From contig NC_018025.1 of assembly GCF_000266945.1 (NCBI RefSeq), forward strand, positions 992,001 to 1,056,000: DNA of 64,000 bases, in the 5' to 3' direction. The stretch is from Desulfomonile tiedjei DSM 6799 (GTDB lineage: Bacteria > Desulfobacterota > Desulfomonilia > Desulfomonilales > Desulfomonilaceae). The translations under genes were made by a program, and so were the position numbers. How positions within the stretch are numbered: the stretch's first letter is position 1; each line of letters begins with the position of its first letter. Positions 28,375 to 59,474 of this stretch are shown piece after piece. The notes under the pieces are model-generated. The model saw only the letters and a program-made list of their open reading frames with translations, had not been told where the DNA came from and searched no databases.

Positions 28375-29376
28375 CTAGACCAAATTCAAACCCTGTTCCG
28401 CAAACAATGAACGGATATCGTCCTCCTGGAACTCGCGGCGTATGAATACAACCCTATTCACTGAACGGTCGAGGAGCCTGGAACCATCAAATGGTTCTAT
28501 ATCGTACGAATGTCCCACATGACTGTAAAGATATGGGCGACCGTCCTGAATGATGAAACCCTTTGCACGAACTACGTCCGCAGGCAATTTATCCGCAATG
28601 GGGCGAAAATCTTCCACAGATCCCGAATGCCACCTGCATGTGATGGAGATGAGTCTGTCCGGCGGGGTCACCTGTGCGGCTTCGTCTTCCAGGATCCTGT
28701 CTACCGCCTCTTCCAGAGCGGTATCGCTCAGAAGCTCTGATTTATCGGCTGGTTTGGCAAGACGTGAGCTACTGCTGGCGGGCAACGAAATGAGATCGGC
28801 AACACTCACCCTGCCATACGTTGTTTCCACAAATTTGGCTTTCGGATTATGTCTCAGAACCACTTCTTTGACAGAGTCAATAGTTGGAACGTCCACGAGA
28901 TCCGTTTTGTTTACGATGAAATTGTCTGCCGCTTCAACCTGCTTTTCGAGAGCGGTAAAGACTTCGTATTGTTCCAGGAAGTTTGCTGCGTCAATCACAC
29001 ACACTTTTTCCAGGGTTTTGTAAACACCCTTGTATATAGGGTTGAAAAGATCTCTGCCGATATCCGTGGGGTTTGCCACTCCACTGGCTTCGATCACCAG
29101 CACCTCGGGTTTGATTACAAAAGCGATTTGGTAGAGTGCTTTGATGAAGTCGCCCTTGACGCAAGCACAAAAAATAGATCCCTTGCTGATTTCGAGCATC
29201 TCCAATTCAGGATCTTCAACCAACGCGCCATCGATGCTCTCTTCTCCGAATTCATTCATCAGCACGAGCAGCTTCAGATCCGGGGGAGTGTCTTTAAGCA
29301 TATGGTTAAGAAACGAGGTTTTTCCACTGCCCAGAAAGCCCGAAATCAAGAACACCTGTGTGCCGGGCTCACTCAT
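28375..29376 (-). CDS. CobW/COG0523 metallochaperone GTPase
   Basis: 333 residues of the G3E GTPase family. Walker A GFLGSGKTS (about 14-22), then NEFGEESIDG, a variant metal motif FCACVKGDF in place of the usual CxCC, Walker B IEASGVANP and base-recognition NKTD; the C-terminal CobW_C-like domain starts near residue 230 (SITCRWHSGS). Members insert or deliver zinc, cobalt or other metals. ATG 29376 is preferred because GGAGAG sits just before it and it follows the stop of the thioredoxin-like gene by one base. In this island it may supply zinc to MtaA-type enzymes or cobalt for corrinoid. Metal unknown. Confidence 0.9.
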   Translation of the reverse strand: MSEPGTQVFLISGFLGSGKTSFLNHMLKDTPPDLKLLVLMNEFGEESIDGALVEDPELEMLEISKGSIFCACVKGDFIKALYQIAFVIKPEVLVIEASGVANPTDIGRDLFNPIYKGVYKTLEKVCVIDAANFLEQYEVFTALEKQVEAADNFIVNKTDLVDVPTIDSVKEVVLRHNPKAKFVETTYGRVSVADLISLPASSSSRLAKPADKSELLSDTALEEAVDRILEDEAAQVTPPDRLISITCRWHSGSVEDFRPIADKLPADVVRAKGFIIQDGRPYLYSHVGHSYDIEPFDGSRLLDRSVNRVVFIRREFQEDDIRSLFAEQGLNLV

Positions 29377-29377
29377 G

Positions 29378-29626
29378 TTACTCTCCACTCCGCTTCAGTA
29401 GTTCAGTCTCTATCTCGTCTACGGTGAGCAATTTTCCCGTGGAAACTACTTCATCATCGATGACGAGCGCGGGGGTCATGTTGACTTTCAAGCGGAAGAA
29501 GACCTCCGGGTCGGCTGTCTTTTCCACCTTGGTATCCGAATCTTTAAGTCTACTGAGGGCTGCTACGGCATTGTTGTAGAGATCTTCACAGCGAGCACAC
29601 CCTGATCCCAGAATTTGCACTTTCAT
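29378..29626 (-). CDS. Small thioredoxin-fold protein (redox-active disulfide protein type)
   Basis: 82 residues: MKVQILGSGCARCEDLYNN gives a C-A-R-C active site at about 10-13; MTPALVIDDEVVSTGK contains the cis-Pro. It is a minimal thioredoxin with the glutaredoxin-like layout of methanogen and Desulfo-type 'thioredoxin family' proteins. It is translationally linked to the CobW gene downstream. A thioredoxin reductase is encoded about 4 kb upstream in the same direction and could reduce it. Confidence 0.9.
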   Translation of the reverse strand: MKVQILGSGCARCEDLYNNAVAALSRLKDSDTKVEKTADPEVFFRLKVNMTPALVIDDEVVSTGKLLTVDEIETELLKRSGE

Positions 29627-29656
29627 GATGATTTTTCTCCGTTTGGCCGATTGGCT

Positions 29657-30286
29657 TTATGTCAGCAAAATAAGTGAATAGCTTCTGTAAGAATCTTCGA
29701 TGTTATGCACGATGGAGATAGATTTTCCCAGCCTCTTCAAAGTCTGGAAGACGTCGATGGAACAGGCTTCCAATGAGGGTCTTTTTTCATTCGGAAACTT
29801 GCACTGATTCGGATATGCGCATTCCTTACAAAGAGCACAACATTCTGCAGGAAGGCCGAACGCCTTGTAGTAGCCCATCAGGAAAAGCTTGCGTTCGAGA
29901 GCTACGGTAGATTTCCATTGTCTGATCTGTATACGTCGCTTTTCGCCCGAATTTCGATAAAAATGTTCATTACAGTTTTCGGTGACCAGCAATAGGGCAG
30001 AATCATATTCCGCGAGGAGATCTCTCGTAGTCTCAAGATCCGGAGCGGCAGGAGGACAGCACCAACTGGTATTGTAATTGGCGCACCCATAGCGGCACTT
30101 CAGACCTACCCATCTCGCCGTAACGATATGAGAGGTTTCCAGCAAATGAACCTCAATAAAACCGAGATCCTTTGCAATCAACTCGATTTCTTCAAGAGCA
30201 TCGACAGTCAGGTTGGACGATATCTGCCTTCCGCGCTTTCGGCAAAGGCCTCTCAAATCAATCAGATCATCGTTTCTCACCGGCAT
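29657..30286 (-). CDS. DUF2284 metal-binding protein
   Basis: 209 residues with the DUF2284 Cys pattern: KCRYGCANYNTSWCCPP (about 75-92), then ECCALCKECAYPNQCKFP (about 155-172). The eight or so Cys residues suggest iron-sulfur or zinc binding. A shorter relative is at 55896-56402, also beside CobW genes. Function is not known; recurrence next to corrinoid and CobW genes suggests a role in methyl transfer or metal delivery. ATG 30286 follows AGGT. Confidence 0.8.
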   Translation of the reverse strand: MPVRNDDLIDLRGLCRKRGRQISSNLTVDALEEIELIAKDLGFIEVHLLETSHIVTARWVGLKCRYGCANYNTSWCCPPAAPDLETTRDLLAEYDSALLLVTENCNEHFYRNSGEKRRIQIRQWKSTVALERKLFLMGYYKAFGLPAECCALCKECAYPNQCKFPNEKRPSLEACSIDVFQTLKRLGKSISIVHNIEDSYRSYSLILLT

Positions 30287-30356
30287 GGGATTTTACCTCG
30301 AGCGATGTATCATTTCGTCTGACGTTACGTCCTTATCCGGATCTGGATCTTTAGAT

Positions 30357-30698
30357 TTAGGATTCATCCTCCGGTTCGCATTCAAATTCGATACTTACTG
30401 AACTTGGCACATTTAACCCGAGAGCGACCTCCGCGGCTTTGATTATCGCCACCGGCACGGGGCACGCCGAATGTGGCAATTTCTCAGTTGCAACCTGAAA
30501 TACTCGATTCTTCCCGGGGTTTGTGCTCAAGATCTCTTTGAGTCCGAGCGGATCCATTTGCTCCAAAATGCATGCCAGGTCAGCGACAGAATCGCAGTCT
30601 GATTCCATTTCTATGCAGACTGTACGCTTGTCTCCTTTGTTTGCCTTGACCAGTGTCACGAATCCGCATGCACCGGCAGATATTTTTACGGTTGTCAT
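30357..30698 (-). CDS. Uncharacterised small Cys-containing protein of the C1 island
   Basis: 113 residues, not recognised with certainty (perhaps DUF6951). Conserved-looking features are SAGACGFVTLVKA near the N-terminus, ESDCDSV around residue 35 and HSACPVPVAIIKAAEVALG near residue 80. These three Cys plus the alternating strand/helix pattern suggest a compact metal- or thiol-binding domain. Its ATG overlaps the stop of the Sec-containing thioredoxin-like gene (ATGA), so the two are probably made together. A GAGGA site precedes the start. Confidence 0.75.
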   Translation of the reverse strand: MTTVKISAGACGFVTLVKANKGDKRTVCIEMESDCDSVADLACILEQMDPLGLKEILSTNPGKNRVFQVATEKLPHSACPVPVAIIKAAEVALGLNVPSSVSIEFECEPEDES

Positions 30699-30985
30699 AT
30701 TGTCCTCAGAACAGAAGCACTCTTTATTGCATTAACCAAATCCTCTTCAGGTGGAATGTTGCATTCAAAGACCAATCTTCCATCAATTGCCACCGCCGGG
30801 AGGCTCCTTGCATTCAATTCTTGAAAGCGAGCGACCCCCTCGCGCGTCCGAAGGCTCCACTCGCGATACTCTATCTGTTCCAAAACTTCCTGCGGCAAAC
30901 CCTTTACCGCTGCGACCATATAGACGCACGCGTGTCATTGCGAAAAATCTGTAACCAAAACCTCTACGCACGTTTTCGTATGCAT
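30695..30985 (-). CDS. Putative selenoprotein: thioredoxin-fold protein with U-x-x-C active site (in-frame TGA at 30935-30937)
   Basis: From ATG 30985 (GGAG seven bases upstream) 16 codons lead to TGA, then 79 sense codons to the stop at 30695, giving 96 residues with Sec17-His-Ala-Cys20. The whole reading aligns without gaps to the Cys protein at 37799-38191: VEVLVTDFSQ-U-HACVYM against IDVLTLDSVQ-C-AACGYM, then IEYREWSLRTREG against IEYKEWSIKNKEG. An ATG 18 bases after TGA (30919) would give a 74-residue protein lacking the active site, which is how it would usually be annotated. A SECIS-like hairpin follows at 30892-30910. Likely a thiol/selenol reductase or metal carrier for the corrinoid system. 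Confidence 0.85.
30892..30910 (-). promoter_or_regulatory. SECIS-like hairpin after TGA of the thioredoxin-fold selenoprotein
   Basis: On the minus strand GCGGTAAA-GGG-TTTGCCGC forms eight pairs (one G-U) with loop GGG, starting 24 nt after TGA, so the loop is 32 nt away. Bacterial SECIS elements have the loop about 16-37 nt after UGA and a G in the first two loop positions. Confidence 0.6.
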
Positions 30986-31298: not shown

Positions 31299-33374
31299 TT
31301 ACTTCTGATGCAGCACCTCTGGCGCAACGACTCCTTCGAGGTGAGGAAATTCGTCCTTCATGTGAGGCAACTGCATTGCTTCCATGAACTGCTGTTGAAA
31401 ATCGCTTTCTACCGTGAGTTCTATGTACTCAACATTGCGAGAAACCCAATTGGCTTCGGCTCTCTTTTCACGATTGAGAAGAGCAGCTCTGGCCCCGTCT
31501 CCTGCCGCATTACCCACGGCAAAAACCTTCTCCAGGTCGCAATCTGGAAAGAGGCCCATGATTAGGGCTTTCGTCTTGTCAACATGGGTCCCGAAGGCTC
31601 CTGCAATCTTGATTGAGTCAACTTTATCCAGGCCAAGCCGTCTCATCATCAGCTTGCATCCCGTGTAGAGCGCACCTTTACCTAACTGGATCTGGCGGAT
31701 GTCTTTCTGGCTTATGACGACATCTTTGCCGATGGAAGTCTCATTGGCCCAGGCAATCACGAATTCCGGTTGTTTCGTGTCGGGGTTCACCCTATAGCGA
31801 TTGGATTTTTGTTTTTTGCTGAATCTGCCGCTCTTCATGATGACTCCCGAAGCGTACAGTTCCGCCAGCACGTCGAGAATTCCGGAACCGCATATGCCCT
31901 TCGTCTTCATGTCTTCGGGCTTGGAATACTTCCGCCAGGCGTCTCGTCCAATGACTTTATAGTCTACGTCGTGAGTCTCGGGGTCGATGTGTATTCGCTC
32001 AATGGCACCTGGAGCCGCTCGCATGCCAAAGCTCAATTGAGCTCCTTCCAGAGCGGGTCCGGTAGCGCATGAACAGGAGATCAACTTGCGATTATTGCCC
32101 AGAACCAGTTCGCCGTTTGTTCCGATATCGATAAGCAGTTGCGTCTGATCGAATTTATACGGCTCTTCTGCTATGAGCACACCCACATTATCTGCTCCGA
32201 CGAATCCGGCTTCGTTCGGCAACACGTGTACGTATGCAGAATCATTTATCTTGATTCCAAGATCGCGAGCCCTGATATCCAAGCTGCGATGAATAACAGG
32301 TGGGAAGGGAGCCAGACCCACGAATTCCGGATCGAGCTTCAGCAGAATGTGGTGCATGGCCGTATTGCAGACGATGGTCATGTCAACGATGTCCGCCGGA
32401 ATCAGATTCAAGTATTTGGACTCGTCCAGCTCTTCGGCGTGTTCCGTGACATCGGGTGCCTCAATGATCTCATCCGCTTCCTCGGCTTTTTTCTTCTTCC
32501 GTTTTTTCGGAGGATGCGTACTCTCGCAAGCTTCGACCACCAACTTGTTCAACCCCTCGATGAGATCGTTGCTCATAGTCTCGAGGCCGCCGGGATTCAT
32601 CATATGATAGGTGATGCGAGCCATGACGTCTTCGCCATATTTGCACTGCGGATTCATCATGGAAACGGTTTTGATGACCTCCATAGTGCGCAGGTTGCAC
32701 AGGTACGCCGCAACGGTGGTTGTGCCGACATCTATGGCAATGCCATAAGAGTCCTCGACTTTGCCCGGTAATACGCGGACTATTTCTTTGTCCATCCAGA
32801 CAGCGACAGTAACACCCCAGTTTCCATCACGCTGACGCCGGGGCAGTTTTCTCAGAGTCGGCCAGTCTATGTTGAGGTCTTTGAGCCCGTAATTACGCTC
32901 GAGCTCAGCGCAGATTCGCTCAAAGTCGCCAGCAGGCTCTTCGAATGTGGGCGGAACCACTTGGACATGATACTGCTTTACAGCGGGATTCCAATCAATA
33001 TGAATATCCCTTGCAGCCTTGCTGACGACCTGCTTTCCGGCACGGGCTTCCTCAGGAACGAATACCAGCATGTCCCCCTGGACCTTGGCCACGCAGGCGA
33101 GGCGGTATCCTTCGTCCTTCTGAGCCGGTGTGAAGAATTTGTCCTCTTCCTCTTGCCATTCACTTGCATGAGAACGACTGGAGGTAATGGCGAATTTCTC
33201 GTAGAACCCTTCTTCGATTCTTACTTTGCATTTACCGCAAACTTTCTTTTCTCCGCAGAGGGCTTCAATATCGACCCCCAACTGACGCGATGCTTCGATG
33301 AGGTTGGTTCCTTCATCGACAAAACCTCTACGTGCTGATGGTTGGAAGATCACCATGTACTGTTTTTTACTCAT
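31299..33374 (-). CDS. Corrinoid-protein reductive activator (RACE/ASKHA type) with [2Fe-2S] domain
   Basis: 691 residues. An N-terminal plant-type [2Fe-2S] ferredoxin (C40, C46, C49 and C94) precedes a linker and a C-terminal ASKHA-type ATPase domain (about 210-690) with AIDVGTTTVAAYLC, LIDIGTNGELVLGN and IAGAFGTHVDK. RACE proteins use ATP and ferredoxin to reduce accidentally oxidised Co(II) to Co(I) in corrinoid proteins of O-demethylases and related C1 systems. An acidic/Lys-rich insert (KKRKKKKAEEADEI, about 290) is unusual. It lies downstream of the corrinoid protein and methyltransferase genes, fitting that role. Confidence 0.92.
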   Translation of the reverse strand: MSKKQYMVIFQPSARRGFVDEGTNLIEASRQLGVDIEALCGEKKVCGKCKVRIEEGFYEKFAITSSRSHASEWQEEEDKFFTPAQKDEGYRLACVAKVQGDMLVFVPEEARAGKQVVSKAARDIHIDWNPAVKQYHVQVVPPTFEEPAGDFERICAELERNYGLKDLNIDWPTLRKLPRRQRDGNWGVTVAVWMDKEIVRVLPGKVEDSYGIAIDVGTTTVAAYLCNLRTMEVIKTVSMMNPQCKYGEDVMARITYHMMNPGGLETMSNDLIEGLNKLVVEACESTHPPKKRKKKKAEEADEIIEAPDVTEHAEELDESKYLNLIPADIVDMTIVCNTAMHHILLKLDPEFVGLAPFPPVIHRSLDIRARDLGIKINDSAYVHVLPNEAGFVGADNVGVLIAEEPYKFDQTQLLIDIGTNGELVLGNNRKLISCSCATGPALEGAQLSFGMRAAPGAIERIHIDPETHDVDYKVIGRDAWRKYSKPEDMKTKGICGSGILDVLAELYASGVIMKSGRFSKKQKSNRYRVNPDTKQPEFVIAWANETSIGKDVVISQKDIRQIQLGKGALYTGCKLMMRRLGLDKVDSIKIAGAFGTHVDKTKALIMGLFPDCDLEKVFAVGNAAGDGARAALLNREKRAEANWVSRNVEYIELTVESDFQQQFMEAMQLPHMKDEFPHLEGVVAPEVLHQK

Positions 33375-33494: not shown

Positions 33495-34460
33495 CTACTG
33501 GGGTTTGTCCGGAAGCATGCGCAAGTAGTCTGCCGCAGTCTGAGCTGCCAAAGCGCCATCTGCCGCTGCAGTCAGGATCTGACGCAACGGAGTGTCCCTT
33601 ACGTCACCCGCAGCAAAAACTCCGAGCGCTGATGTATTGAGTCGAGCATCGGTAATGATGAAGCCGCTCGCTGTCAACTCAAGTTTGCCGTCCAAGAATT
33701 CTGTGACCGGCGATTGTCCCACGCCCACAAACACCGCATCTACCCCAAAAGTCTCAAAATTCTTTGTTTCCGTATTTTGCAGAGAAAGGCAGGTAACCCC
33801 TTGTTCGCCAATGATTTCAGTCACGGAGCGTTGAACGAGAATACTTGCCTTTTGACTCTGCTGTAACCTTTGAATGAGCGCCGGTTTTGCCCTGGGTTCC
33901 GATCCTCTCGTTATAACTGTAACCAATTCGGCATGGGGCAACAGGGCCATGGCAGTATGAAAGGCAGTATCGCCACCCCCTATTACGGCAGCCCGACGAC
34001 TGGACATTGTTCTGAGCAAGGGAGCATCACAAGTGGCACAGAAAAAGACGCCTTTGCCTTCTAACCTGGACTCTCCGGGAACCTCAAGTCGGCGAGGCTT
34101 GGAACCGGTAGCTACGATGACTGCCTTGGCCCTAAATACATCGTCGTTGACGTAAACTTCCTTGATCCGGTTTGAAAAGTCGACGGAAGTTACCGAACTG
34201 GGTCTGGGCATTTCACCGACTTCGTCGATGAGCTGCTTGAGCCACCGTGTCATGAGTTCCGCGCCGGTAATTCCTCCAGGGAATCCCGGATAATTTTCGA
34301 CATTGTAATGATGAGTGACTTGCCCGCCCGGAGCATATCCTCCGATCATGAGGACTTTAAGTCCTGCCCGGTGCCCATAGATCCCTGCAGTGAGACCTGA
34401 AGGCCCGGCACCGATTACCAGGAGATCGTACAGTTCGGTGTTCACTGTTCGCTTTCCCAT
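33495..34460 (-). CDS. trxB: Thioredoxin reductase (NAD(P)H, FAD)
   Basis: About 321 residues. FAD motif VIGAGPSGLTAGIYGHRAG, redox-active disulfide FFCATCDAPLL (CxxC, about 143), NAD(P) motif VIGGGDTAFHTAM and FAD-closing FAAGDVRDTPLRQ. The start ATG 34460 overlaps the end of the preceding thioredoxin-like gene by 19 bases. In TrxB the CxxC is usually CATC, as here. It likely reduces the several thioredoxin-fold proteins of the island, including the Sec-containing one, instead of or besides the general thioredoxin. Confidence 0.93.
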   Translation of the reverse strand: MGKRTVNTELYDLLVIGAGPSGLTAGIYGHRAGLKVLMIGGYAPGGQVTHHYNVENYPGFPGGITGAELMTRWLKQLIDEVGEMPRPSSVTSVDFSNRIKEVYVNDDVFRAKAVIVATGSKPRRLEVPGESRLEGKGVFFCATCDAPLLRTMSSRRAAVIGGGDTAFHTAMALLPHAELVTVITRGSEPRAKPALIQRLQQSQKASILVQRSVTEIIGEQGVTCLSLQNTETKNFETFGVDAVFVGVGQSPVTEFLDGKLELTASGFIITDARLNTSALGVFAAGDVRDTPLRQILTAAADGALAAQTAADYLRMLPDKPQ

Positions 34461-34783
34461 TTCAAAAGAGCTTCGTCGAGAGCACGACATAGCTCATCCG
34501 GCCCAGGGATTTCGTCAAATACCAAGCGGCCGGAAAAGAGAATTGCCGGCACGGGGAGGCGTCCCCCATGCTCCTTGCACAATGCAAGATATCGAAGTGC
34601 GTCGGCAGGACGCTTTGTCTCCAGGATTTTTACTTCAACGCGGCCTTCGTACTGAGGAGCAACATACTCCACAGCCGCAATCGCATACTCGCAAGGGACG
34701 CAGTGAGGTCCCTCTGAAACGACCTCTATGATAAGCGGCCCCTTCCCATAATCCCCAGTCTTTTCCTCAAACGATTCGACCAA
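34442..34783 (-). CDS. Thioredoxin-fold protein with HCVPC site
   Basis: 113 residues from a TTG at 34783 (no ATG is available before the active site). The core IIEVVSEGPHCVPCEYAIAA has a C-V-P-C site near residue 28-31; RLPVPAILFSGRLVF contains the cis-Pro. It is paralogous to 58285-58641, where the second Cys is Tyr. It overlaps trxB, a direct sign that the reductase serves it. Upstream is a strong hairpin separating it from the corrinoid protein gene. Confidence 0.85.
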   Translation of the reverse strand: MVESFEEKTGDYGKGPLIIEVVSEGPHCVPCEYAIAAVEYVAPQYEGRVEVKILETKRPADALRYLALCKEHGGRLPVPAILFSGRLVFDEIPGPDELCRALDEALLKWESEQ

Positions 34784-34910: not shown

Positions 34911-35591
34911 TTAGACTCCGGTTTCTTTCAACTTACGCAACTGACCGATCATTTTGATTGCTTCTTGCACGGCATTACCTGCGCTCTCGGCATAACCGTC
35001 TGCACCAAAAAGATTGGCCACGTCTTTGGTCACCGGCGCTCCTCCGAGCATGATGGCGACATCGGGATTCTTCTCTTTAATCATGGCAATGACTTTCTTC
35101 ATTCCCATCATCGTCGTAGTCATCATGGCTGAAAGAGCTACGATTTCAGAATCAGTGCGGAGCTGTTCTTCCGCGAATTTCTCCAGGGGAACGTCTCGAC
35201 CCAGGTCGTGCACGGTAAATCCGCCAACGTCAAACATCATCTTGATGAGGTTCTTACCGATGTCATGGACATCACCCTGCACGGTGCCGATTACCACTTG
35301 CCCTTTCATTCCGGACGCGGTGTCTTTTTTCAAATGAGGTTTGAGAATGTCCAGGCCTGCATAGAGAGCGTCCGCGCACATCAAGATTTCGGGCACGAAG
35401 TACTCTTGCCTATCGTACAGATCCCCGACGATCTCCATACCAGCGGCCAAGCCGTTCATAATCGCGTCGTAAGGGTCAACTCCTTCTTCCAGGGCTATAT
35501 TGGAATATTCCTTTACCTGGTCTTCCTGATACTCGACCACTCCGTCCGAGAGATTTTTCAGAATTTCTGCTCGTCTTTCTTCTGACACCAT
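34911..35591 (-). CDS. Corrinoid (B12-binding) methyl-carrier protein, MtaC/MtbC/MttC type
   Basis: 226 residues from ATG 35591, which follows GGAGGAAACGAA; a longer frame upstream lacks family sequence. An N-terminal helical cap (about 1-90, EEGVDPYDAIMNGLAAGM) and a B12-binding Rossmann domain (about 95-215) with DVHDIGKN, whose His is the lower cobalt ligand, then SAMMTTTM and GGAPV. It carries the methyl group between the substrate methyltransferase and the acceptor enzyme. Neighbours are MtaA-like and MtrH-like methyltransferases upstream and RACE downstream, so a complete methyl-transfer unit is present. Confidence 0.95.
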   Translation of the reverse strand: MVSEERRAEILKNLSDGVVEYQEDQVKEYSNIALEEGVDPYDAIMNGLAAGMEIVGDLYDRQEYFVPEILMCADALYAGLDILKPHLKKDTASGMKGQVVIGTVQGDVHDIGKNLIKMMFDVGGFTVHDLGRDVPLEKFAEEQLRTDSEIVALSAMMTTTMMGMKKVIAMIKEKNPDVAIMLGGAPVTKDVANLFGADGYAESAGNAVQEAIKMIGQLRKLKETGV

Positions 35592-47345: not shown

Positions 47346-47374
47346 TCTTACCTCTTCAATTGCGTACTAGGCAA

Positions 47375-50172: not shown

Positions 50173-50183
50173 AAAAGCCTCGG

Positions 50184-51023: not shown

Positions 51024-51113
51024 ACTTTCCTCCCGGCCGTCACTCCGGACACACATGCCTCGTACAAGGGGCAGCATCGCGCCGCTGCCCCGGGACACAC
51101 AAGATACGTTTAA

Positions 51114-52169: not shown

Positions 52170-52519
52170 GCGTGTACCTCTCACTTTCTTTGGTTTAGGC
52201 CCGGGATGTCCCGGAAGGTTTGGTTGAATACCGCGGTGAATTCCTTGCAGAACAGAGAACAAATTTCCTAGTAATTCAATGATACATCCTTTTGCGAAAG
52301 GGAGAACAACAGAAGAACAGTAAGATACTGGTAGGGAAAAACTACCGGCGCGGCCAGTGTATATCTGTTTGCTCTAAATATTATCAGGCTTCAGGGGGAT
52401 CGAAACACTGGAAGAAGAGTGCTACTTTAATTCTCGTTATTCGGCGGAAAACAAAGAAAAGTGTGTTCCTGTCGACCAAGATGATATTGTGAAAAGAATA
52501 AAACTGCAATGGGGTATCG
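52170..52519. other. Divergent intergenic region
   Basis: 350 bases between the divergent MtaA-like gene and the plus-strand thioredoxin-fold gene, so it should hold two promoters. No convincing boxes or dyads were identified. GGGGTATCG before 52520 is the ribosome site of the latter. Confidence 0.5.
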
Positions 52520-52984
52520 ATGGGAATGAAAAAGAACACTATTGATGTTCTGGTGATCGGAACAGAGCCGCCTTGTCCACGTTGCGACCTGATGAGCTGT
52601 CTTGCTGAAGAATTGGCTGGTGAGGCTTCTGTCGAAGTAAATGTCCGTCACTGTGCGTTCGATTCCTCAGAGGCCTTTGCCCTGGGGCAGAAATTCGGTC
52701 GAAAGGTCGGGACCGCAAAACATGTTGCCGATGCCGCAGGAATCTCGATGGACTGGAATGCGGTATATGCCTTGATCCAAAGCAAAAGCGATGCAGTAGG
52801 TCCCGATCGGCGTCCGGCAGAAACGTGGACCCTGGAACTGGATGAAATGCTCGAGCCATGTCAGTTCGTTGCTGACACGGTGGGATATTTCATGACTCCT
52901 GTCCTGGTGGTAAATGGGTCAGTAAAACACCATGGGAGCGTTCCTTCGCGTGAAAAGATCCAGGTACTTATCTTCGGAGAGTAG
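52520..52984 (+). CDS. Thioredoxin-fold protein with CPRC site, duplicated-looking C-terminal half
   Basis: 154 residues. VLVIGTEPPCPRCDLMSCLAEE carries C-P-R-C (about 19-22); VNVRHCAFDSSEAFALGQKFG follows; MTPVLVVNGSVKHHG (about 135) has the cis-Pro region. The insert between (DAAGISMDWNAVYALIQ) makes it larger than the other thioredoxin-fold proteins of the island. It is divergent from the MtaA-like/NorQD set. Likely a thiol reductase or metal carrier; the exact family was not recognised. Confidence 0.8.
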   Translation: MGMKKNTIDVLVIGTEPPCPRCDLMSCLAEELAGEASVEVNVRHCAFDSSEAFALGQKFGRKVGTAKHVADAAGISMDWNAVYALIQSKSDAVGPDRRPAETWTLELDEMLEPCQFVADTVGYFMTPVLVVNGSVKHHGSVPSREKIQVLIFGE

Positions 52985-52993
52985 CAATTTGTT

Positions 52994-53962
52994 TTAATCC
53001 TCTACGGAGTTGCGATGGTTGTTCCACGCATGAAATTGTTGGTACAGACAATTGGGCTCCAGTGAAAGCAGGCGCGTCCTCAAATTAACTTTCTTATTTC
53101 TGATACCGAGTTTGCGCCTGATTCCTTTCCTGTGAAATTCAACTGCATTGGCCGAGATACACAATATGTCGGCAATTTCCTTGGTTCCTCTTCCCTCCAG
53201 GATCAAATTGGCCACACTGATTTCTCGTGAGGAAAAATTGAACGCTTTTGAGGAAAGATGATGCGCGAATGGAGCAGTCACCCCCTCTATGTTCGCCTGT
53301 ATTATCGCCAGATACTCTCTTTGAGTGGAATCCAGGTTGGTTTTACGAAGCTTTTCAAGATAGGGATTCACCAGTTCTCTGATATTTGAGAGGACATTAT
53401 TTTCGAGTTCCTTTTTGTCGTCTTCTCTGCGTTTCAGTATGACGTTGAGGGCAGTATTTACAGTCTCGAGATTCGCTTTTTGCGTGGCAAGTTCTCGCTG
53501 GAGATCCGCCAATGCTGCGGAAGCATACATTTCCGCTGTAATATCTTCGTGGCTCAGGACGACTCGCAACGTTCCGAATCCTTCAAGCGGAGCAGCCCGC
53601 ATTCGGCACCATCGTTCATGGTCGACTTCATGGCATGGATAGTCGATGATGAACTCCTCGGCTTGTCGCTGAAGCACCGATCGTATCCCGTAGGCCGCCT
53701 CCTCGGCTTTTTCGGAGGAATACCCTCTCGCAGAATCTGTAACCTCGAAATAATTGATGCCCAATGCCTCCGGGTGTCTTACGTTCTTTCTTTGGCCGAA
53801 TATTCGCCAGGCTCTATTCGTAATGCAGATTGTTCCCTTGTCATCCAGAATGGCCGAATTTGTGGAGAGACAATCGAGTAAAGTACTCGCAACGTCTCGC
53901 AGTACGTTTTCCCGGTCCAATGAATTCCCTGCCGCATCGGAATCACAGACTGATCTCAACAT
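52994..53962 (-). CDS. PAS-LuxR transcriptional regulator
   Basis: 322 residues from ATG 53962. One PAS domain (about 30-150: AILDDKGTICITNRAW ... VVLSHEDITAEM), a coiled linker (about 160-215), and a LuxR HTH (about 255-315: FSSREISVANLILEGRGTKEI, ISANAVEFHRKGIRRKLG). The HTH resembles that of the larger PAS-LuxR regulator at 39816. It overlaps no gene and converges on the thioredoxin-fold gene, ten bases apart. It may control the selenoprotein CobW set upstream or the MtaA/NorQD set downstream. Confidence 0.87.
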   Translation of the reverse strand: MLRSVCDSDAAGNSLDRENVLRDVASTLLDCLSTNSAILDDKGTICITNRAWRIFGQRKNVRHPEALGINYFEVTDSARGYSSEKAEEAAYGIRSVLQRQAEEFIIDYPCHEVDHERWCRMRAAPLEGFGTLRVVLSHEDITAEMYASAALADLQRELATQKANLETVNTALNVILKRREDDKKELENNVLSNIRELVNPYLEKLRKTNLDSTQREYLAIIQANIEGVTAPFAHHLSSKAFNFSSREISVANLILEGRGTKEIADILCISANAVEFHRKGIRRKLGIRNKKVNLRTRLLSLEPNCLYQQFHAWNNHRNSVED

Positions 53963-54074
53963 ATTCAATGGCCTTTCCCGGTATAATGCGCAAAGTGATG
54001 AAAGCGCCGTGTTGCGGGTTTTTGTAAACATGAATTATGACAATTTATTATCGGATATGAGACTCCCTGTTATG

Positions 54075-54683
54075 TTATTTGAGAGGCCTGCCATTAGGAT
54101 TTATCGCGTCCATGATGAATTCCGTACCGAGTTCCTGCAGAGTGCTCAACTCTATGATTTTGTCCGAATTCCCTTCTAAGGTCTCTCGGATACGGTCTCG
54201 CTGATGTCTCTCCAGCATGTCCGCTCTACTGATAGCGACCAAATCTGCACCGGCAATTTGTGCAAGCAAAAGTTTCTGACGATCTGCCCACGTCGCCTCG
54301 AATTCAGGTCCGTCCACGAGAGTAACGAAAGGACCTATATGATAGGAACAATCCCGAAGCCCGGAAGCTGCCGCAGCATTCAACTCCTGAGTGGTCACCA
54401 TGCTCGAAGGCTCTATAAAGAGAAAATCAGGCTTCGTCTCTCTGCAAAAACTTTTGATAAGGACTGCAAAACTTGCCATCAGGGAACAGCCCAGTCATCC
54501 TCCACGCAAAGGTTCTACCCTGATATCGTGCGACCGAACAAAGCCCTCATCATAGCGAGCGATGCCATCTTCATTCACGATGACTCCGCATCGCTTTCCC
54601 AGCACGTTAAGCCGTACGATCAGCTCTCGAATCAAGGTTGTCTTTCCGCTGTCGAGCATGCCTGAAACAGCGATCAACTTCAC
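54075..54683 (-). CDS. Putative selenoprotein: CobW-type GTPase with Sec in the metal motif (in-frame TGA at 54495-54497)
   Basis: GTG 54683 (AAAGGAG upstream) starts a 202-residue protein with TGA as codon 63. Before TGA: Walker A GMLDSGKTT (8-16) and VNEDGIARYDEG; after it: LGCSLMASFAVLIKSF, Walker B FIEPSSM and ISRADM in place of NKxD. The stop falls at RGG-U-LGCS, aligned with GGG-C-ICCE of the CobW protein two genes upstream, so Sec replaces the first Cys of CxCC while the last Cys is kept. An annotator would see two fragments of 62 and 134 residues. A SECIS-like hairpin follows. It is third in a tight set CobW, unknown, Sec-CobW, with gaps of three bases. Confidence 0.87.
54462..54480 (-). 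promoter_or_regulatory. SECIS-like hairpin after TGA of the CobW-type selenoprotein
   Basis: Minus strand GAT-G-GCAA-GTT-TTGC-A-GTC: seven pairs around one G-A mismatch, loop GTT, starting 14 nt after TGA. The loop sequence is the same as in the MtaA-like selenoprotein gene. Confidence 0.65.
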
Positions 54684-54686
54684 TCG

Positions 54687-55208
54687 CTACTCCTTTTCTT
54701 CTTTACTAGGATTTTCCATCGCGGCCAATTGTTCCTCCAATTGTCGGCGATATTCCTCCTTGGATGCAGTAAAATCGAATTCATCAAAATATGCGTGCTC
54801 TTTTTCCTTCGTTACCGAAAGGCCCCGTTCTTCTGCAACCTCGTGAATACCGTCCAGAGTTGCCTGTTTCACTTCGTCTTGATGCATTCCCTGTATAATG
54901 CTGTTCACGGCCATATACAGATCGTGAACCGGATGTTCCAAGTGTCCCGTGGAGAATGCTCCATGAGCGATACCGATGGTGTCGGATTTAATGGTGCCTG
55001 CATCAGTCCTTACATGCGACTTGATGTGACCGATACAACGAGCCCCTCGGTTTATACACTTTCCAGCTATGTTAAGCATCATGGATTCCGCAATGGACTT
55101 CACCAGCGACTCATCCATGAGATCCTGAGCGGAAAGCTTAATTGCAACTCCATAGCCGCTTACACCATGCTCTGTGTAGCATCCTGCTTGCTGTTCTTGA
55201 GTTTCCAT
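54687..55208 (-). CDS. Uncharacterised protein between two CobW GTPases
   Basis: 173 residues, not recognised. The core (about 20-125) is a mixed fold with AGKCINRGARCIGHIKSHV, TIGIAHGAFSTGHLEHPVHD (His-rich) and LYMAVNSIIQGMH. The C-terminal 45 residues are charged and helical (ASKEEYRRQLEEQLA). The two Cys near residue 50-57 and several His could bind metal. It lies three bases from both CobW genes, which suggests a complex with the GTPases, perhaps as the metal-binding partner. Confidence 0.75.
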   Translation of the reverse strand: METQEQQAGCYTEHGVSGYGVAIKLSAQDLMDESLVKSIAESMMLNIAGKCINRGARCIGHIKSHVRTDAGTIKSDTIGIAHGAFSTGHLEHPVHDLYMAVNSIIQGMHQDEVKQATLDGIHEVAEERGLSVTKEKEHAYFDEFDFTASKEEYRRQLEEQLAAMENPSKEEKE

Positions 55209-55211
55209 AGG

Positions 55212-55823
55212 TTAACCCTTCCATTCCAGGATAATTTGTTTGATTCGTTCCAGTCCCAAACCGGTAAAGGAGGACAATTGCAGGATTTCAGCTTTTTCGT
55301 TGAGATTGCAGACCCTGTCTGCTGTTTCGGCAAGCTCTTCTTCGCTTACCGCATCAGCTTTGCTGATTGCAACGACATCAGCGTCTTTCACCTGAGTCGT
55401 CACGAGCTGTCCAAGCATGTCCATATCGAGCAGTTCTGCCGGCCGAGTAGCGTCAAAGAGCACAATGGCGGGCCCCAGGGAAATCTTGGCATCTCGACTG
55501 CTCATTCTTGCAGCTAACTTTACCTGATGGGGAACAGCAACACCGGTGGGCTCAACCAAGAGGTGGTCGGGTCCGAATTCTTTGTACAGGCTGTAAACCG
55601 TCTTTGCGAAAGTCGATGCCACTTCGCAGCAGATACAACCTCCACCGATATCTTTGACCCTCATGCCGCTCTCTTCCATTATTTTTCCGTCAACGGGAAT
55701 TTCTCCGATTTCGTTCACGACAAGAGCTACCTTTCTGATACCAGCCGCAAGCTCTTTTGAGAGTCTCAACATCAGGGTGGTTTTCCCGCAGCCCAGAAAA
55801 CCTGCCACTTGCGTTATCTTCAT
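55212..55823 (-). CDS. Short CobW-type GTPase (Cys form)
   Basis: 203 residues from ATG 55823, after GTGGAGG. Walker A GFLGCGKTT (about 8-16), VNEIGEIPVDG, metal motif GGGCICCEV (about 60-68), VEPTGVAVP and ISKADAV for base recognition. The C-terminal CobW_C domain is absent, so it is a G-domain-only member, near HypB-like proteins in size. It is the Cys counterpart of the Sec protein two genes downstream. The two may form a heterodimer of GTPases delivering a metal. Confidence 0.88.
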   Translation of the reverse strand: MKITQVAGFLGCGKTTLMLRLSKELAAGIRKVALVVNEIGEIPVDGKIMEESGMRVKDIGGGCICCEVASTFAKTVYSLYKEFGPDHLLVEPTGVAVPHQVKLAARMSSRDAKISLGPAIVLFDATRPAELLDMDMLGQLVTTQVKDADVVAISKADAVSEEELAETADRVCNLNEKAEILQLSSFTGLGLERIKQIILEWKG

Positions 55824-55895
55824 CGTTCCTCCACGAATTCCCAAATTTAGGAGAGGTTTGTGCAGTCTGACATGTTCTTGTCCCCGAAAAGCAGA

Positions 55896-56402
55896 CTAAT
55901 CGAGAAGAACCATGCTGTACCATGCAGGCAGAAGCGTGCCCTGAGAATCAAATTGCACTTTGAATCCGAGCGGTTCGACGGTTTTTGCTATGTCCACGCC
56001 CATACCGTCCATCGCCGGTCTCGCAAGATGCGGAAACCTGCACGGATCGGGGAACGCGCATTCTTCGCAAAGCACACAAAGCACCAGGGCAAAGGCATAA
56101 ATGGCCCCATGTTCCAGCATCGCCTTCTTCTCGATTGCCAGGGTGATTTCCTGGGAAATTTTCGGATCGGGGCTTTGGATTGCGATCGCTGTTTGATAGC
56201 GTTCAAGAGCGTCGCGAAACTGTTCGGGAGTTATTCTAATATTCGGCTGACAGGTCCAGTATTTGCCCCAACGGTTACAGCCAAACCGACATTTTAGAAG
56301 TGAACGAGGGTCAAAGACTATGCCGTTGCGCTTCAAGAGTTTGGCATCGGATGCTCCCAGGCGAATAGCCTCGTCAATCAAGCTGTCAAACGCGTGAGTC
56401 AA
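55896..56402 (-). CDS. DUF2284 metal-binding protein, short form
   Basis: 168 residues from TTG 56402, chosen because GAGGAGAGAA lies just upstream. Cys pattern KCRFGCNRWGKYWTCQPN (about 38-55) and LCVLCEECAFPDPCRFP (about 105-121), as in 29657-30286 but with an N-terminal domain missing. It starts 73 bases upstream of the CobW set, same direction. Unknown role; recurrent with CobW and corrinoid genes. Confidence 0.82.
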   Translation of the reverse strand: MTHAFDSLIDEAIRLGASDAKLLKRNGIVFDPRSLLKCRFGCNRWGKYWTCQPNIRITPEQFRDALERYQTAIAIQSPDPKISQEITLAIEKKAMLEHGAIYAFALVLCVLCEECAFPDPCRFPHLARPAMDGMGVDIAKTVEPLGFKVQFDSQGTLLPAWYSMVLLD

Positions 56403-56876
56403 GATTCTCTCCTCTATTCTTGTCGAAGACGTAGTATCACACTGGATTCATCTGTAATGGTAAGTTAGTCATTAAGACTGGATTGAGTCCGCGAGTCAGT
56501 GACTGCAACGAATAGTTTCATGATCTTTGATGCATTGGCCAACGCTGAGGATTCTGAAACAATTTACTATAAGGATCGCCGAAACTGAAAACGCCACCGC
56601 GTTCTTACGGGAACAGCCTTATTTCATAATCGCAGTTTTTCGCCGATTGAACAAGCTATTCCAAGGATATTTTTCACTGGATACTATAGTTAACAAAATT
56701 TCTCAAGATTAAATCATGGCATCAACCAGGTAATTACCTGTAACCAGACCGGGTTCTTTCAGTCTTTTTGAGGGGCTGAATAAGGATTGATTCAGTATTT
56801 TCCAGATTTGCGTTATCCTGGAGGTCAACGCGCTTTCGCGATTTCGGAAATAGAAGTAAGGCTAAAAATCGTATCC
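56403..56876. other. Intergenic stretch, nothing supported
   Basis: Non-coding by all visible signs and A/T-rich towards 56700. The promoter of the DUF2284/CobW set probably lies at 56403-56500. Confidence 0.45.
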
Positions 56877-57205
56877 ATTCGGTTACGCGTGGAAGAGCTT
56901 TCTACAGCCCCATAGGGGCTGCCCAACAGCCTCTGTCCACGGATTGACGAGACTGTCTCAAAAGTCAAGATTTATCCTGGATCGTGGCACGAAATTCTCA
57001 TCATGTTCCCGGCCTGACTGTAGGGGCGGGCCTCGTGTCCGTCTAAATAGGGGTAGGCACTAGGCCTACCCCTACGAAGATGGAGAATCGTGGCACGATT
57101 TGTTATGCATTCGAGAAGTTTTGAGACAGTCTCTGACACCCGTGGCTATTATTGGGCCGCCCTTCCAGCGCGGAAAATTCCTAGTGCCCGCTCATAACTG
57201 AATTG
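56877..57205. repeat. Family C repeat with nested family B element, second copy
   Basis: Begins CATTCGGTTACGCG, contains AGCCCCATAGGGGCT, the B element at 56949-57133 with the same flanking TGAC as the 26108 copy, and ends near ATAACTGAATT. Compared with 25895-26350 it lacks about 150 bases left of B, so the copies diverged after B inserted. Confidence 0.65.
56949..57133. mobile_element. Family B MITE-like element, second copy
   Basis: Terminal repeats GAGACTGTCTCAAAAG and TTTTGAGACAGTCTC, flanked by TGAC. Nearly the same as 26108-26291. Confidence 0.7.
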
Positions 57206-57208
57206 TTG

Positions 57209-57736
57209 CTAAAAATCTACTCCTCTTGCGGCAGGGTGTCCCGTTTCATAGTGGTGTTTACACTTTCTCATCTCAAGTACCTGATCTGCCAAGGAAATGA
57301 CGTCCTCATGAGCGTAGCGGCCTGTGATGACCAACTCCACTTCTTCGGGCTTGGACTTTATGAAATCAAGGAGTACTTCCAATTCCAGTAGTTCTTTGTG
57401 AACGGCCACATTAGCCTCATCAAGAATGACAAGTCCGTACTCTCCACTCAACATGGCCTCTCGGCAATTGTCCAAGGCAAGCCGTGCTTCGAGTTTCTCC
57501 TCAGGTGCAGGTTTACGCTTGAGAATGAATCCTCTCGTGCCGACCGGTTTCAGCGTTAGCCATGATCCCAATGCCTGTACCGCGAAATGCTCGCCGCTGG
57601 AATCCGGTCGCTTGATGAACTGGACCATATAGACCTTTTTGTCCACACCTGCAAACTGCAGGGCAATACCCAGAGCTGATGTTGTCTTTCCTTTGCCTTC
57701 TCCGGTGAGCACCCGGATTCGGCCCTTCTTGCACAT
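57209..57736 (-). CDS. cobA: Cob(I)alamin adenosyltransferase, CobA type, second copy
   Basis: 175 residues from ATG 57736. P-loop GEGKGKTTSALG (about 11-22), MVQFIKRPDSSGEH, LDEANVAVHKEL and TGRYAHEDVI. Like 42342-42869 in length and motif order but clearly diverged. Preceded on its 5' side by GAGGAG. It lies divergent to the thioredoxin-fold and DUF1638 genes. It may serve a different corrinoid pool, or one copy may work on corrinoid protein. Confidence 0.92.
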   Translation of the reverse strand: MCKKGRIRVLTGEGKGKTTSALGIALQFAGVDKKVYMVQFIKRPDSSGEHFAVQALGSWLTLKPVGTRGFILKRKPAPEEKLEARLALDNCREAMLSGEYGLVILDEANVAVHKELLELEVLLDFIKSKPEEVELVITGRYAHEDVISLADQVLEMRKCKHHYETGHPAARGVDF

Positions 57737-58095
57737 AGAGCATTCTCCTCGAGCTGGATGCGCGCCATTTTGGATTACCATTCGCTTCATGTCAAACGAA
57801 TCCGATGTGCAACACGATTGTACCGGATATCTTCTTTGCTGTTCTGGAGTCAGCGAGAGCAATCTCGTTAAAACTTGCCACAATCACTCAGGTTTTTGGC
57901 AGATTATCGAGAAAGTTCTTGACAACTTTTTTCCAGTCGATCACAAATATATCAACAACCATTTATATGGACAGGCGATCAAGTTTGTCGCACTTTCAAA
58001 AAAGCTCCGTTCAAAGCCTATCCACAATGGTGGAAACAGTTTTTCTTACCTGGATGGTAGAATGAAAATCGAGATCGATGACAGGTAAACCTTAT

Positions 58096-58196
58096 AATAC
58101 CGATTCGCCTTTCTTTTTATAACCAGGAAGGCTAGGGGTATCTTTCGCTCCGGACGACGCAAAGCCGTCTAATCACTCCGCTCAGAACACCCCAGC
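58096..58196. repeat. Family D repeat, copy 2
   Basis: Diverged copy of 31119-31219, with TCTTTCGCTCCGGACGACGC and the ending CACCCCAGC. The remaining intergenic 57737-58284 shows no gene. Confidence 0.65.
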
Positions 58197-58284
58197 CTTC
58201 GCTATCTTATATGCATAACTGGGAAATGGTATAAGAGTTCACTTTTGTGCGTAATATCACCTTTGTCGGAGGGGTCGTGACATA

Positions 58285-58641
58285 ATGACCGATGCAGCGC
58301 ACCATGAAGAGGAACTGAACGATTCGCCGGACGCAGTGCTTGTGGAAGTTATCTGCGAGCGTTACCATTGTGTCATGTATGATTATGCTATTACCACTGT
58401 GGAGTTCGTGGCAGAAGACTTTGAAAAAGCGGTTCGGGTTAGGCCTGTTGTCAGAAGAGGAAACCGAGAGAATGCCGAGCGTTTTTTCGAGTTATGTAAA
58501 CGGAACGGACGCCATCTTTCGGTTCCAACGATTCTCATTGATGGAAAAGTGGTCTTTACGGATGTTCCCGGACCGGAAGAATTGCGTAAAGCTATCGAGC
58601 AAGCTTTAGACGCGAGAAAATCTGTCGCGGATTTGGGCTGA
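58285..58641 (+). CDS. Thioredoxin-fold protein with altered site HCVMYDY
   Basis: 118 residues. Paralogue of 34442-34783: LVEVICERYHCVMYDYAITT against IIEVVSEGPHCVPCEYAIAA, so the second active-site Cys is Tyr. The cis-Pro region HLSVPTILIDGKVVF and PGPEELRKAIEQAL are conserved. It cannot form the usual disulfide and may act by a single Cys (plus an upstream Cys in VICE) or bind a metal or partner. GGAGGGG precedes ATG 58285. A DUF1638 gene follows after 71 bases. Confidence 0.85.
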   Translation: MTDAAHHEEELNDSPDAVLVEVICERYHCVMYDYAITTVEFVAEDFEKAVRVRPVVRRGNRENAERFFELCKRNGRHLSVPTILIDGKVVFTDVPGPEELRKAIEQALDARKSVADLG

Positions 58642-58712
58642 ACCGTTCCGCTTCAATTCCATGAATGTTGGGTTAATGCATTCGTAGGGTAATTTCTAAA
58701 AGGTGGTTCCTT

Positions 58713-59474
58713 ATGCCGGTGATCGGACTCATTTGTTGCCAAGTTTTGGAAATGGAATTCGCTCATGTTCTTGCCAACGATCCGGTCGCGGATCCGGTAA
58801 TAGTCCTGCAGACGGATTTCTCAGACGGCTTTTCCAAAACGTTCGAAGGTTTACGGGGAAAACCTCCCACAGAAATTACGACTTTGGATGATGATCTCCC
58901 AGTCTCTGAGTCCATTACAGTACTCGTGAATGTTCTCCAAGTCGGTCTCCATACCGTCATAAAGGATCTCCAGACAGGCATTCTCCAAGCGGCATCGGCT
59001 ATGGCTCCATACGTCGATCTGTTTTTGCTGGGTTACGGTCTCTGCGGAAACGCTCTGGCCAATCCTATAGAGCTGCTGGCTTCCGTCGACACCCCCGTCA
59101 TGATCCCCATGGACGAGGATCATGCAGTTGACGACTGTATTGGGCTGCTCATAGGCGGCAGGGAACGTTATTACTCGGAACAATGTAAATGTGCCGGGAC
59201 AATGTTCATGACTTCAGGGTGGGCGAATCATTGGAAAGACATAATGCTCAAACAGAATCGCGGAAGTTTCGGCTGTGAAATATCCAAGCGTTTGATGGCG
59301 AATTACGAACGGGTACTTGTTCTCTCTACCTCTGTCATGTCCAGCGAAGAGATGACTGCACAAGTCACGGAATTTGGCGAACTCTATTCGTTGAGGACCG
59401 AGGTGCGCGATGGCACCCTGAAAATCCTGGAACAGACCTGGCAAAACGCAAAAGAGAAAGTGAGCCGGTTTTAG
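58713..59474 (+). CDS. DUF1638 protein of corrinoid methyl-transfer loci
   Basis: 253 residues. DUF1638 features: IGLICCQVLEMEFAHVL at the N-terminus, FLLGYGLCGNALANPIEL (GLCGN signature, about 110) and IPMDEDHAVDDCIGLLIGG. Cys-rich tail EQCKCAGTMFMTSGW. DUF1638 proteins recur beside corrinoid methyltransferases of methanogens and acetogens (family knowledge), where they have no proved role. Here it follows a thioredoxin-fold gene in an island with two CobA and several MtaA genes. AAAGGTGG precedes ATG 58713. Confidence 0.85.
   Translation: MPVIGLICCQVLEMEFAHVLANDPVADPVIVLQTDFSDGFSKTFEGLRGKPPTEITTLDDDLPVSESITVLVNVLQVGLHTVIKDLQTGILQAASAMAPYVDLFLLGYGLCGNALANPIELLASVDTPVMIPMDEDHAVDDCIGLLIGGRERYYSEQCKCAGTMFMTSGWANHWKDIMLKQNRGSFGCEISKRLMANYERVLVLSTSVMSSEEMTAQVTEFGELYSLRTEVRDGTLKILEQTWQNAKEKVSRF

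Follow-up and report, generated by a model that had tools for sequence, protein, structure and literature searches.

The systems closest to the locus described here are the soluble coenzyme M (CoM) methyltransferases MtaA/MtbA (4ay7), the type 1 mlp clusters, the SAO/Tso selenoprotein operons, the CobW-related selenoprotein family NF041053, and glycine/betaine reductase. We compare them with a 64,000-nucleotide stretch of the Desulfomonile tiedjei DSM 6799 genome (positions 992001-1056000 of the near-complete 6.53-Mb genome; hereafter the window), which holds an island of methyl-transfer genes. Within this island, a methyltransferase gene of the MtaA type carries a selenocysteine (Sec) codon and is directly followed by the gene of a thioredoxin-fold protein. 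The methyltransferase, MtaA-Sec, is seemingly an unreported selenoprotein with its own thioredoxin, Trx_37799, inside a known kind of system.

MtaA-Sec shares with MtaA/MtbA the URO-D fold, Cys231, the third ligand position and corrinoid neighbors. It differs in its overall sequence (29% identity by Foldseek, below the TIGR01463 cut-off), in the loss of the His of the HxC motif, in Sec as the putative third ligand, in a new His145, and in its thioredoxin partner. The type 1 mlp clusters, as described in PMC10418091, likewise combine several MtaA-like proteins, a corrinoid protein, RACE and a link to selenium; compared by description, the window differs by MtrH, Sec inside the methyltransferase, added thioredoxins, a thioredoxin reductase (TrxR), CobW and DUF2284. 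The lack of a tetrahydrofolate (H4folate) methylase, given in that text as a trait of the three clusters first described, does not extend to the window, which encodes MtrH at 36753-37700. The SAO/Tso operons of Haft and co-workers, as summarized in the review PMC13188914, also place several Sec proteins in one organometal/thiol-type neighborhood, and their HUIPC thioredoxin-like family is related to proteins of the window, but the core proteins are different and the table of the review contains no URO-D selenoprotein. Judged by its profile score, the CobW-type selenoprotein of the window (CobW-Sec) is a member of the known family NF041053, from which we found no difference. Glycine/betaine reductase differs from the window system in consisting of unrelated proteins and is not known to involve a corrinoid. 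The two are alike in that Sec enzymes are served by thioredoxin, as stated for glycine reductase in PMC13188914.

The island falls into two or more blocks. One is a tightly packed run of minus-strand genes (39239-28375) with gaps of at most 313 bp, another a mixed-strand block (42336-59474), the eastern half belonging to the island less certainly. With gene types assigned by Pfam/NCBIfam, the minus-strand run contains the following features.

38205-39239, minus strand: MtaA-Sec, a URO-D/MtaA-fold methyltransferase with Sec at 38312-38310, the third Zn-ligand Cys position of MtaA
38280-38296, minus strand: hairpin resembling a bacterial Sec insertion sequence (bSECIS), 3' of the MtaA-Sec TGA, with a 7-bp stem and a GUU loop
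37799-38191, minus strand: Trx_37799, the CAAC thioredoxin-fold partner, 13 bp downstream of MtaA-Sec
36753-37700, minus strand: MtrH-family methyltransferase (NF002142, 294.1 vs cut-off 287)
35624-36664, minus strand: MtaA_35624, an H-C-C protein like soluble CoM methyltransferases (NF004889, 224.2 vs 244, below cut-off)
34911-35591, minus strand: corrinoid protein, B12-binding and MtbC/MtgC-like, its start set further downstream than the TTG that opens the frame
34442-34783, minus strand: Trx_34442, an HCVPC thioredoxin fold, a Cys-containing relative of the HUIPC selenoprotein family
33495-34490, minus strand: TrxR-like flavoprotein (TIGR01292, 303.1 vs 343.45, below cut-off)
31299-33374, minus strand: RACo/RACE corrinoid reductive activase (family match)
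30695-30985, minus strand: TrxSec, a UHAC thioredoxin-fold selenoprotein, TGA at 30937-30935 with a strong hairpin downstream
30357-30698, minus strand: DUF6951 protein (family match)
29657-30286, minus strand: DUF2284_A, a predicted metal-binding DUF2284 protein (family match)
29378-29626, minus strand: small thioredoxin (GSGCARC), found by homology and itself outside the family scan
28375-29388, minus strand: CobW_A GTPase, with a relative in 64 of 80 related loci (62 on the same strand)

The codon at 38312-38310 recurs across a family. In the best 80 of 112 MtaA-Sec relatives from a contig scan, many of these loci being short contigs, the corresponding codon is TGA in 75 and Cys in four (L064, L066, L108 and L124), and it is cut off in one (L143). 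The TGA is therefore more than chance, given that 75 of 80 related loci have it at this place. We rejected a sequencing error or a pseudogene on the same count of identical codons. A separate search of a phylum sample of 395 genomes (E<=1e-40) matched MtaA-Sec in 11, eight with TGA, one with a full-length Cys form (G330) and two with distant Cys forms; by the lengths of their contigs, at least five of the 80 loci are also in this sample (L066=G330, L068=G337, L070=G215, L127=G390, L133=G142). The closest named relatives among the best 80 are metagenome-assembled genomes (MAGs), a Desulfomonilaceae MAG (94%) and one labelled Desulfomonile tiedjei (93%), the record titles in this set include Desulfobacterota and Bacillota among others, and the genome of strain DSM 6799 itself holds MtaA-Sec twice.

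The TGA of MtaA-Sec is followed by a bSECIS-like hairpin whose third codon positions are near-invariant in the TGA forms (the T of GTT in 75 of 75, the G of CCG in 69 of 75, and a G in the next codon in 73 of 75). Its mean folding energy in Sec forms is -8.4 kcal/mol; the same stretch in the Cys forms folds at -6.9 (L064, through a different 5-bp stem), -3.1 (L066, 5 of 7 pairs), -3.4 (L108) and -2.1 kcal/mol (L124). MtaA-Sec scores over no NCBIfam cut-off, the best match being TIGR01463 with 135.6 vs 235.4 bits. In a tree of 33 rows, MtaA-Sec and two fused relatives split from 13 of 14 other URO-D rows with a support of 97/100; the bootstrap in this tree is not fully settled, several branches are long, and the 14th URO-D row (L043) sits on a very long one. 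The available part of selenoprotein Table 1 (119 families) in the 2026 review PMC13188914 contains no URO-D family, and our literature searches, within the portions of the sources at hand, turned up no selenoprotein of URO-D/MtaA type. MtaA-Sec thus seems to be an unreported selenoprotein family, the work of Haft being judged through PMC13188914.

Two further in-frame TGA codons lie in the window, at 30937-30935 in a thioredoxin fold (UHAC) and at 54497-54495 in a CobW protein (GGULGC); all three, including that of MtaA (38312-38310, APGU), align with a Cys position of homologues, and the genome encodes SelB and a canonical tRNA-Sec(UCA) scoring 69.5 bits. The original prediction, made from the letters of this DNA, had named three Sec sites, and these stand, as do its gene types: three URO-D/MtaA proteins, MtrH, a corrinoid protein, RACo, a TrxR-like protein, four CobW, two CobA, two DUF2284, one DUF1638 and six thioredoxin-fold genes, the last with family matches partly below cut-off and one found by homology. 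It also proposed a Cys paralogue for each Sec protein in the island, which is true of the thioredoxin (TrxSec and the Cys thioredoxin 37799-38191 share 43% identity), moderately so of CobW-Sec (30% to CobW_55212, 55212-55844), and does not apply to MtaA-Sec, at just 21-22% identity to the other two MtaAs of the window. TrxSec matches with TGA occur in 4 of the 395 genomes, all among the eight with a Sec-form MtaA; CobW-Sec, whose downstream fold reaches -3.9 kcal/mol over 41 folded nt, occurs in two, both among the same eight and one of them the query genome. Of 20 further genomes examined for tRNA-Sec, 17 have one over cut-off; G047, G306 and G395 do not, and of these G306 and G395 have Cys forms. 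Within the whole window, ARAGORN found no tRNA genes and an Rfam scan gave no matches.

The same genome also carries a tRNA-Sec-like gene with a GCA anticodon (C1:3562734-3562821, L053) and a second SelB (C1:3562952-3564838, L060), a combination that corresponds to the known selC* tRNA-Cys/SelB* type described in PMC7609411. The opposite strand downstream of this pair encodes a reductase of the double-cubane type (NF040772, 469.2 vs 350) together with its activator; relatives of both are also beside selC*/SelB* in L167, and GCA forms of selC* occur in L164-L168.

The second constant of the family is its thioredoxin. A Trx_37799 relative lies within 500 bp downstream of MtaA-Sec, on the same strand, in 76 of the 80 loci; L143 ends at the MtaA-Sec gene, and L064, L066 and L067 are without a Trx relative. 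Searched alone in the 395 genomes (E<=1e-15), Trx_37799 matches eight, exactly those with a Sec-form MtaA. In addition, two distant Cys homologues (L026 and L027) have a C-terminally fused CAAC thioredoxin-like domain with 35% and 29% identity to Trx_37799. These results support the dedicated redox proteins envisaged in the original prediction to the extent that a thioredoxin accompanies the Sec methyltransferase in the same eight genomes and a thioredoxin-like domain is fused to two distant homologues. If borne out, these results add a selenoprotein family to corrinoid one-carbon biochemistry, with Sec at the zinc-binding position of MtaA-type enzymes, and tie a Sec methyltransferase to its own thioredoxin in two phyla. 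The pair is present in named isolates (Desulfospira joergensenii, Desulfatitalea alkaliphila and Desulfofundulus species) and offers a concrete handle on the processing of methylated sulfur, selenium or metalloids by anaerobes that are not methanogens.

The active site shows how far MtaA-Sec has departed from MtaA. The protein adopts the URO-D TIM-barrel fold (PF01208, 172 bits; a predicted model with pLDDT 87.7; TM 0.84-0.85 to MtaA structures 4ay8/4ay7). Profile alignment to 4ay7 converts the HIC of MtaA into FIC and APGC into APG(U/C): none of the 80 loci retains the His of HxC (position 229), which is replaced by F in 76, by L in three and by Y in one, and the third ligand position is Sec or Cys. 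The His-x-Cys...Cys zinc site of TIGR01463 is therefore absent, and canonical zinc binding by MtaA-Sec is doubtful. MtaA_35624 and MtaA_51114 are both H-C-C, whereas MtaA-Sec is F-C-U. His145, in the stretch GPLTLASHL, is present in 80 of 80 loci, in 19 of 19 rows of MtaA-Sec and fused proteins, and in none of 14 other URO-D rows (13 distinct proteins). It aligns with the Tyr of TLATYM in the uroporphyrinogen decarboxylase structure 3cyv, which corresponds to human Tyr164, an active-site residue; PDB titles among the structure matches list Y164 mutants. The simplest reading of the alignments would make His145 a relocated metal ligand.

The main rival explanation starts from the same loss. Here, MtaA-Sec would be a Zn-free redox enzyme in which Trx_37799 reduces a Cys231-Sec310 selenenylsulfide, and it would reductively release or activate an oxidized substrate (disulfide, S-oxide or pentavalent metalloid) before demethylation by an H-C-C MtaA. 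The universal absence of the ligand His, the co-inherited CAAC thioredoxin with its two fused domains, and the TrxR relative in 30 of 80 loci alongside several thioredoxin folds all agree with such a role, but the CobW relatives present at 64 of the 80 loci hint at metal loading, and the new invariant His145 resembles a replacement ligand. To our knowledge, the URO-D fold has no disulfide-reductase member. We consider this role unlikely, while giving it more weight than any of the alternatives below; it overlaps those that concern the substrate, and the probabilities we assign are not meant to sum to one.

The neighborhood of MtaA-Sec in other genomes was assessed by counting the best match per place (E<=1e-4) in the 80 loci, many of which are truncated. 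Greedy open-frame calls include antisense artefacts, and one antisense cluster of about 206 aa that kept recurring (24 loci) was removed. The western families recur often: CobW_A in 64 loci, the corrinoid protein in 53, RACE in 52, DUF6951, MtaA_35624 and DUF2284_A in 38 each, MtrH and the small ArsE-type thioredoxin in 34 each, and TrxR in 30. TrxSec relatives are found in 30, of which 29 have an in-frame stop, and Trx_34442 relatives in 33, of which 13 have one (TGA in 13 of 56 matches). Of the 52 loci with enough sequence, 36 have CobW_A no more than 5 kb downstream and in the same orientation. The eastern families are rarer: CobW_44484 in 13 loci, CobA_1 in 12, CobA_2 and Trx_58285 in seven each, the MIP protein in six, PadR in five, MoxR in four, DUF1638, DUF2284_B, Trx_52520 and CobW_55212 in two each, and MtaA_51114 and CobW-Sec in one each. 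In L080, CobW_55212, its neighbor, CobW-Sec, MtaA_51114 and MoxR adjoin the western set, and since this locus joins both sets, the two blocks are tied in a second genome. Consequently, the linkage of these families predicted for other genomes is real in the 80 loci, with L080 joining both halves, while a single pathway of about 25 genes is not supported by the counts, as most eastern families recur in few of them.

In sum, we lean, with modest confidence, towards reading the run 39239-28375 as a corrinoid methyl-transfer operon that feeds tetrahydrofolate and includes a Sec-dependent, thioredoxin-coupled enzyme acting on soft methyl compounds, a reading built on gene families and their arrangement. 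The genes for a methyl donor enzyme, a corrinoid protein, RACE and MtrH are all in this one run. The data show the families, the Sec codons, the gene linkage, the co-inheritance and the exchanged motif; for the metal, the redox relay, the direction of transfer and the substrate, we infer the following. Judged by their families, the H-C-C protein MtaA_35624 would move a methyl group from a donor of the thioether/selenoether class to the corrinoid protein, MtrH would hand it to tetrahydrofolate, and RACE would re-reduce the corrinoid. MtaA-Sec and the CAAC thioredoxin, a near-constant pair that usually appears with a CobW GTPase close by, may act together: Cys231 and Sec310 would handle the thiol/selenol side of methyl transfer, His145 and a metal supplied by CobW probably taking part, and Trx_37799, fed by the thioredoxin reductase of the operon, would keep Cys231/Sec310 reduced between turnovers.

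Several observations weigh against this reading. MtrH is present in just 34 of 80 loci, and 16 of 52 loci have no CobW in the 5 kb downstream (in the window, too, it is further off). The neighbor counts stand without matched control loci; for the core pair, the control is how Trx_37799 is distributed among the 395 genomes. In L067 the genome retains the TGA and yet has no Trx_37799 match, as is the case for the Cys-form genomes of L064 and L066. The draft genome G047 has the TGA form and no tRNA-Sec over cut-off; conversely, four of six Cys-form genomes (G330, G396, G397 and G014) retain tRNA-Sec, which means that the Cys form reflects more than a loss of the Sec trait. RNAalifold gives a weak consensus for the hairpin (-1.7 kcal/mol), because protein conservation leaves little covariation. 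Finally, the putative closeness of His145 to Cys231/Sec310 is alignment-based, and MtaA-Sec could be Zn-free.

The pair of MtaA-Sec and thioredoxin is found in four contexts. The first is that of the window, with MtaA, a corrinoid protein, MtrH and RACE. In the second, MtmB-like proteins are present in 10 of 80 loci, and MttB-like proteins belong here as well, both of two proteins scanned being of this kind (L137, PF06253; L125, TIGR02369 with 422 vs 525, below cut-off). This context suggests that the pair is not bound to one donor. The third surrounds the second copy in the own genome (85%), which again has its Trx (region C1:3776106-3797611; L009, L010). This copy lies downstream of a gene for sulfoacetaldehyde acetyltransferase (Xsc; 768.1 vs 676.4), at a distance of about 0.7 kb. 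A methanogenesis-marker-16 protein (395.1 vs 363.95), an SCMT-like MtaA, a corrinoid protein and ABC-transporter genes are encoded within 20 kb; the transporter genes come closest to taurine and Sao types, with every score below cut-off. Marker-16 relatives take part in CoM synthesis, and they are also near MtaA-Sec in L124 and L127. The region is a possible locus for the breakdown of CoM or methyl-CoM. The fourth context includes GcvH-like proteins on the same strand in eight loci, DGC proteins in seven, and lipoyl synthase in L071, the one locus scanned; lipoate-binding proteins serve Hdr-like sulfur oxidation, according to PMC6067878. The third and fourth contexts point to thiol chemistry. 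Because the pair adjoins different methyltransferases elsewhere (MtaA with MtrH, MtmB/MttB-like proteins, a possible CoM locus), its role is more likely in a corrinoid/thiol half-reaction common to them than in the handling of a single substrate.

MtmB-family proteins lie beside MtaA-Sec at L041:273-1655 and in L072, L108, L118, L123, L125, L132 and L134-L137. We rejected a pyrrolysine-type amine pathway, as a sense codon occupies the pyrrolysine site in the MtmB-like protein of L041, the one protein aligned; this protein has no NCBIfam match.

A bolder version of the operon reading, which we hold to be improbable, would make MtaA-Sec a corrinoid methyltransferase with a rebuilt metal site (His145/Cys231/Sec310) that uses a protein-borne thiol, from its own thioredoxin or, in some relatives, from lipoyl proteins, in place of the CoM of methanogens. 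If true, it would provide a selenolate as zinc ligand and a bacterial, protein-based stand-in for CoM.

As for the substrate, S and Se methyl compounds are favored because both H-C-C enzymes have the S-type site described in PMC10418091; As compounds are less likely. Set against the donors first proposed, S/Se compounds fit best, methylated metalloids are possible and methoxy compounds fit poorly. The operon could instead salvage methyl-selenium, demethylating methylselenol or dimethylselenide in the manner of type 1 mlp clusters to feed a selenium-rich proteome. In PMC10418091, Kountz and Balskus link related MtaA-like clusters to methyl-selenide and report methylcobalamin:selenide transfer by one cluster member, but the clusters published there are without an H4folate methylase and almost all H-C-C, whereas the window encodes MtrH and its MtaA-Sec has F-C-U; such salvage as the purpose of the operon has only a small chance, in our estimate. 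Demethylation or detoxification of methylated arsenic or another metalloid appears marginally less probable still. It would accommodate the ArsE/MTH895-type small thioredoxins in 34 of 80 loci (one was scanned, the relative in L090, which scores over the TIGR00412 ArsE/MTH895 cut-off), the relationship of DUF2284, below cut-off, to ArsM-DUF2284 selenoproteins, the MIP channel of the window and of six loci, and an arsenite methyltransferase in L031 (NF008823, 340.4 vs 263); methylotrophic methanogens demethylate dimethylarsenate anaerobically, according to PMC10579292. Yet the 80 loci gave no match to two ArsM-like methyltransferases of L031 used as queries, no search having been aimed at other ars genes. 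O-demethylation of methoxy aromatics is quite improbable: PMC10418091 mentions UroD-family O-demethylases with a corrinoid protein and an H4folate methylase, but by the same paper the H-C-C site of MtaA_35624 and MtaA_51114 is of the S type, and the Trx/Sec pair would be left without an evident role. That the TGA is read as Cys by selC* tRNA-Cys/SelB*, so that MtaA-Sec would be no selenoprotein, is very improbable, for although selC*/selB* occurs in this genome and some Desulfobacterales selC* have UCA anticodons (PMC7609411), the selC* here has GCA and the UCA tRNA is the canonical tRNA-Sec of 69.5 bits.

The remaining features flank the minus-strand run or belong to the eastern block.

26578-27522, plus strand: short SMC/RecF-like ATPase, divergent from the operon; family in 11 of 80 MtaA-Sec loci
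27539-27826, plus strand: CPFCGKGDRIR ("CPYC") protein with an inferred start; 27 of 80 loci have a relative
39816-42491, minus strand: PAS-LuxR regulator, in 14 of 80 loci
42336-42869, plus strand: CobA corrinoid adenosyltransferase 1 (family match)
43376-44410, plus strand: aquaporin-family (MIP) protein (family match)
44484-45593, plus strand: CobW_44484
47869-51098, minus strand: large protein and MoxR-type ATPase, the latter weakly GvpN/CobS-like below cut-offs, the former without a family match
51114-52262, minus strand: MtaA_51114, H-x-C...C (family match)
54075-54683, minus strand: CobW-Sec (NF041053 CobW-related selenoprotein, 266.8 vs 180), TGA at 54497-54495
55212-55844, minus strand: CobW_55212, a Cys relative of CobW-Sec (family match)
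55896-56402, minus strand: DUF2284_B (family match)
57209-57883, minus strand: CobA 2 (family match)
58285-58641, plus strand: Trx_58285, a HUIPC-like thioredoxin fold (NF047660, 72.7 vs 105, below cut-off)
58713-59474, plus strand: DUF1638 (family match)

Among the six thioredoxin-fold genes, 52520 scores over its Pfam cut-off and 30695 just under (22.2 vs 24.8), while 34442, 37799 and 58285 have no Pfam match and match NF047660 below its cut-off. All four proteins scored against this HUIPC thioredoxin-like family stay under its cut-off of 105 (34442 with 91.5, TrxSec with 39.6, 37799 with 32.8 and 58285 with 72.7).

The large protein within 47869-51098 is presumably of VWA type. MtaA_51114 is followed by the MoxR-type ATPase and this large protein (47869-52262), and relatives of MtaA_51114 and MoxR are also adjacent in L080; MtaA_51114 and the MoxR-type ATPase are perhaps a maturation pair.

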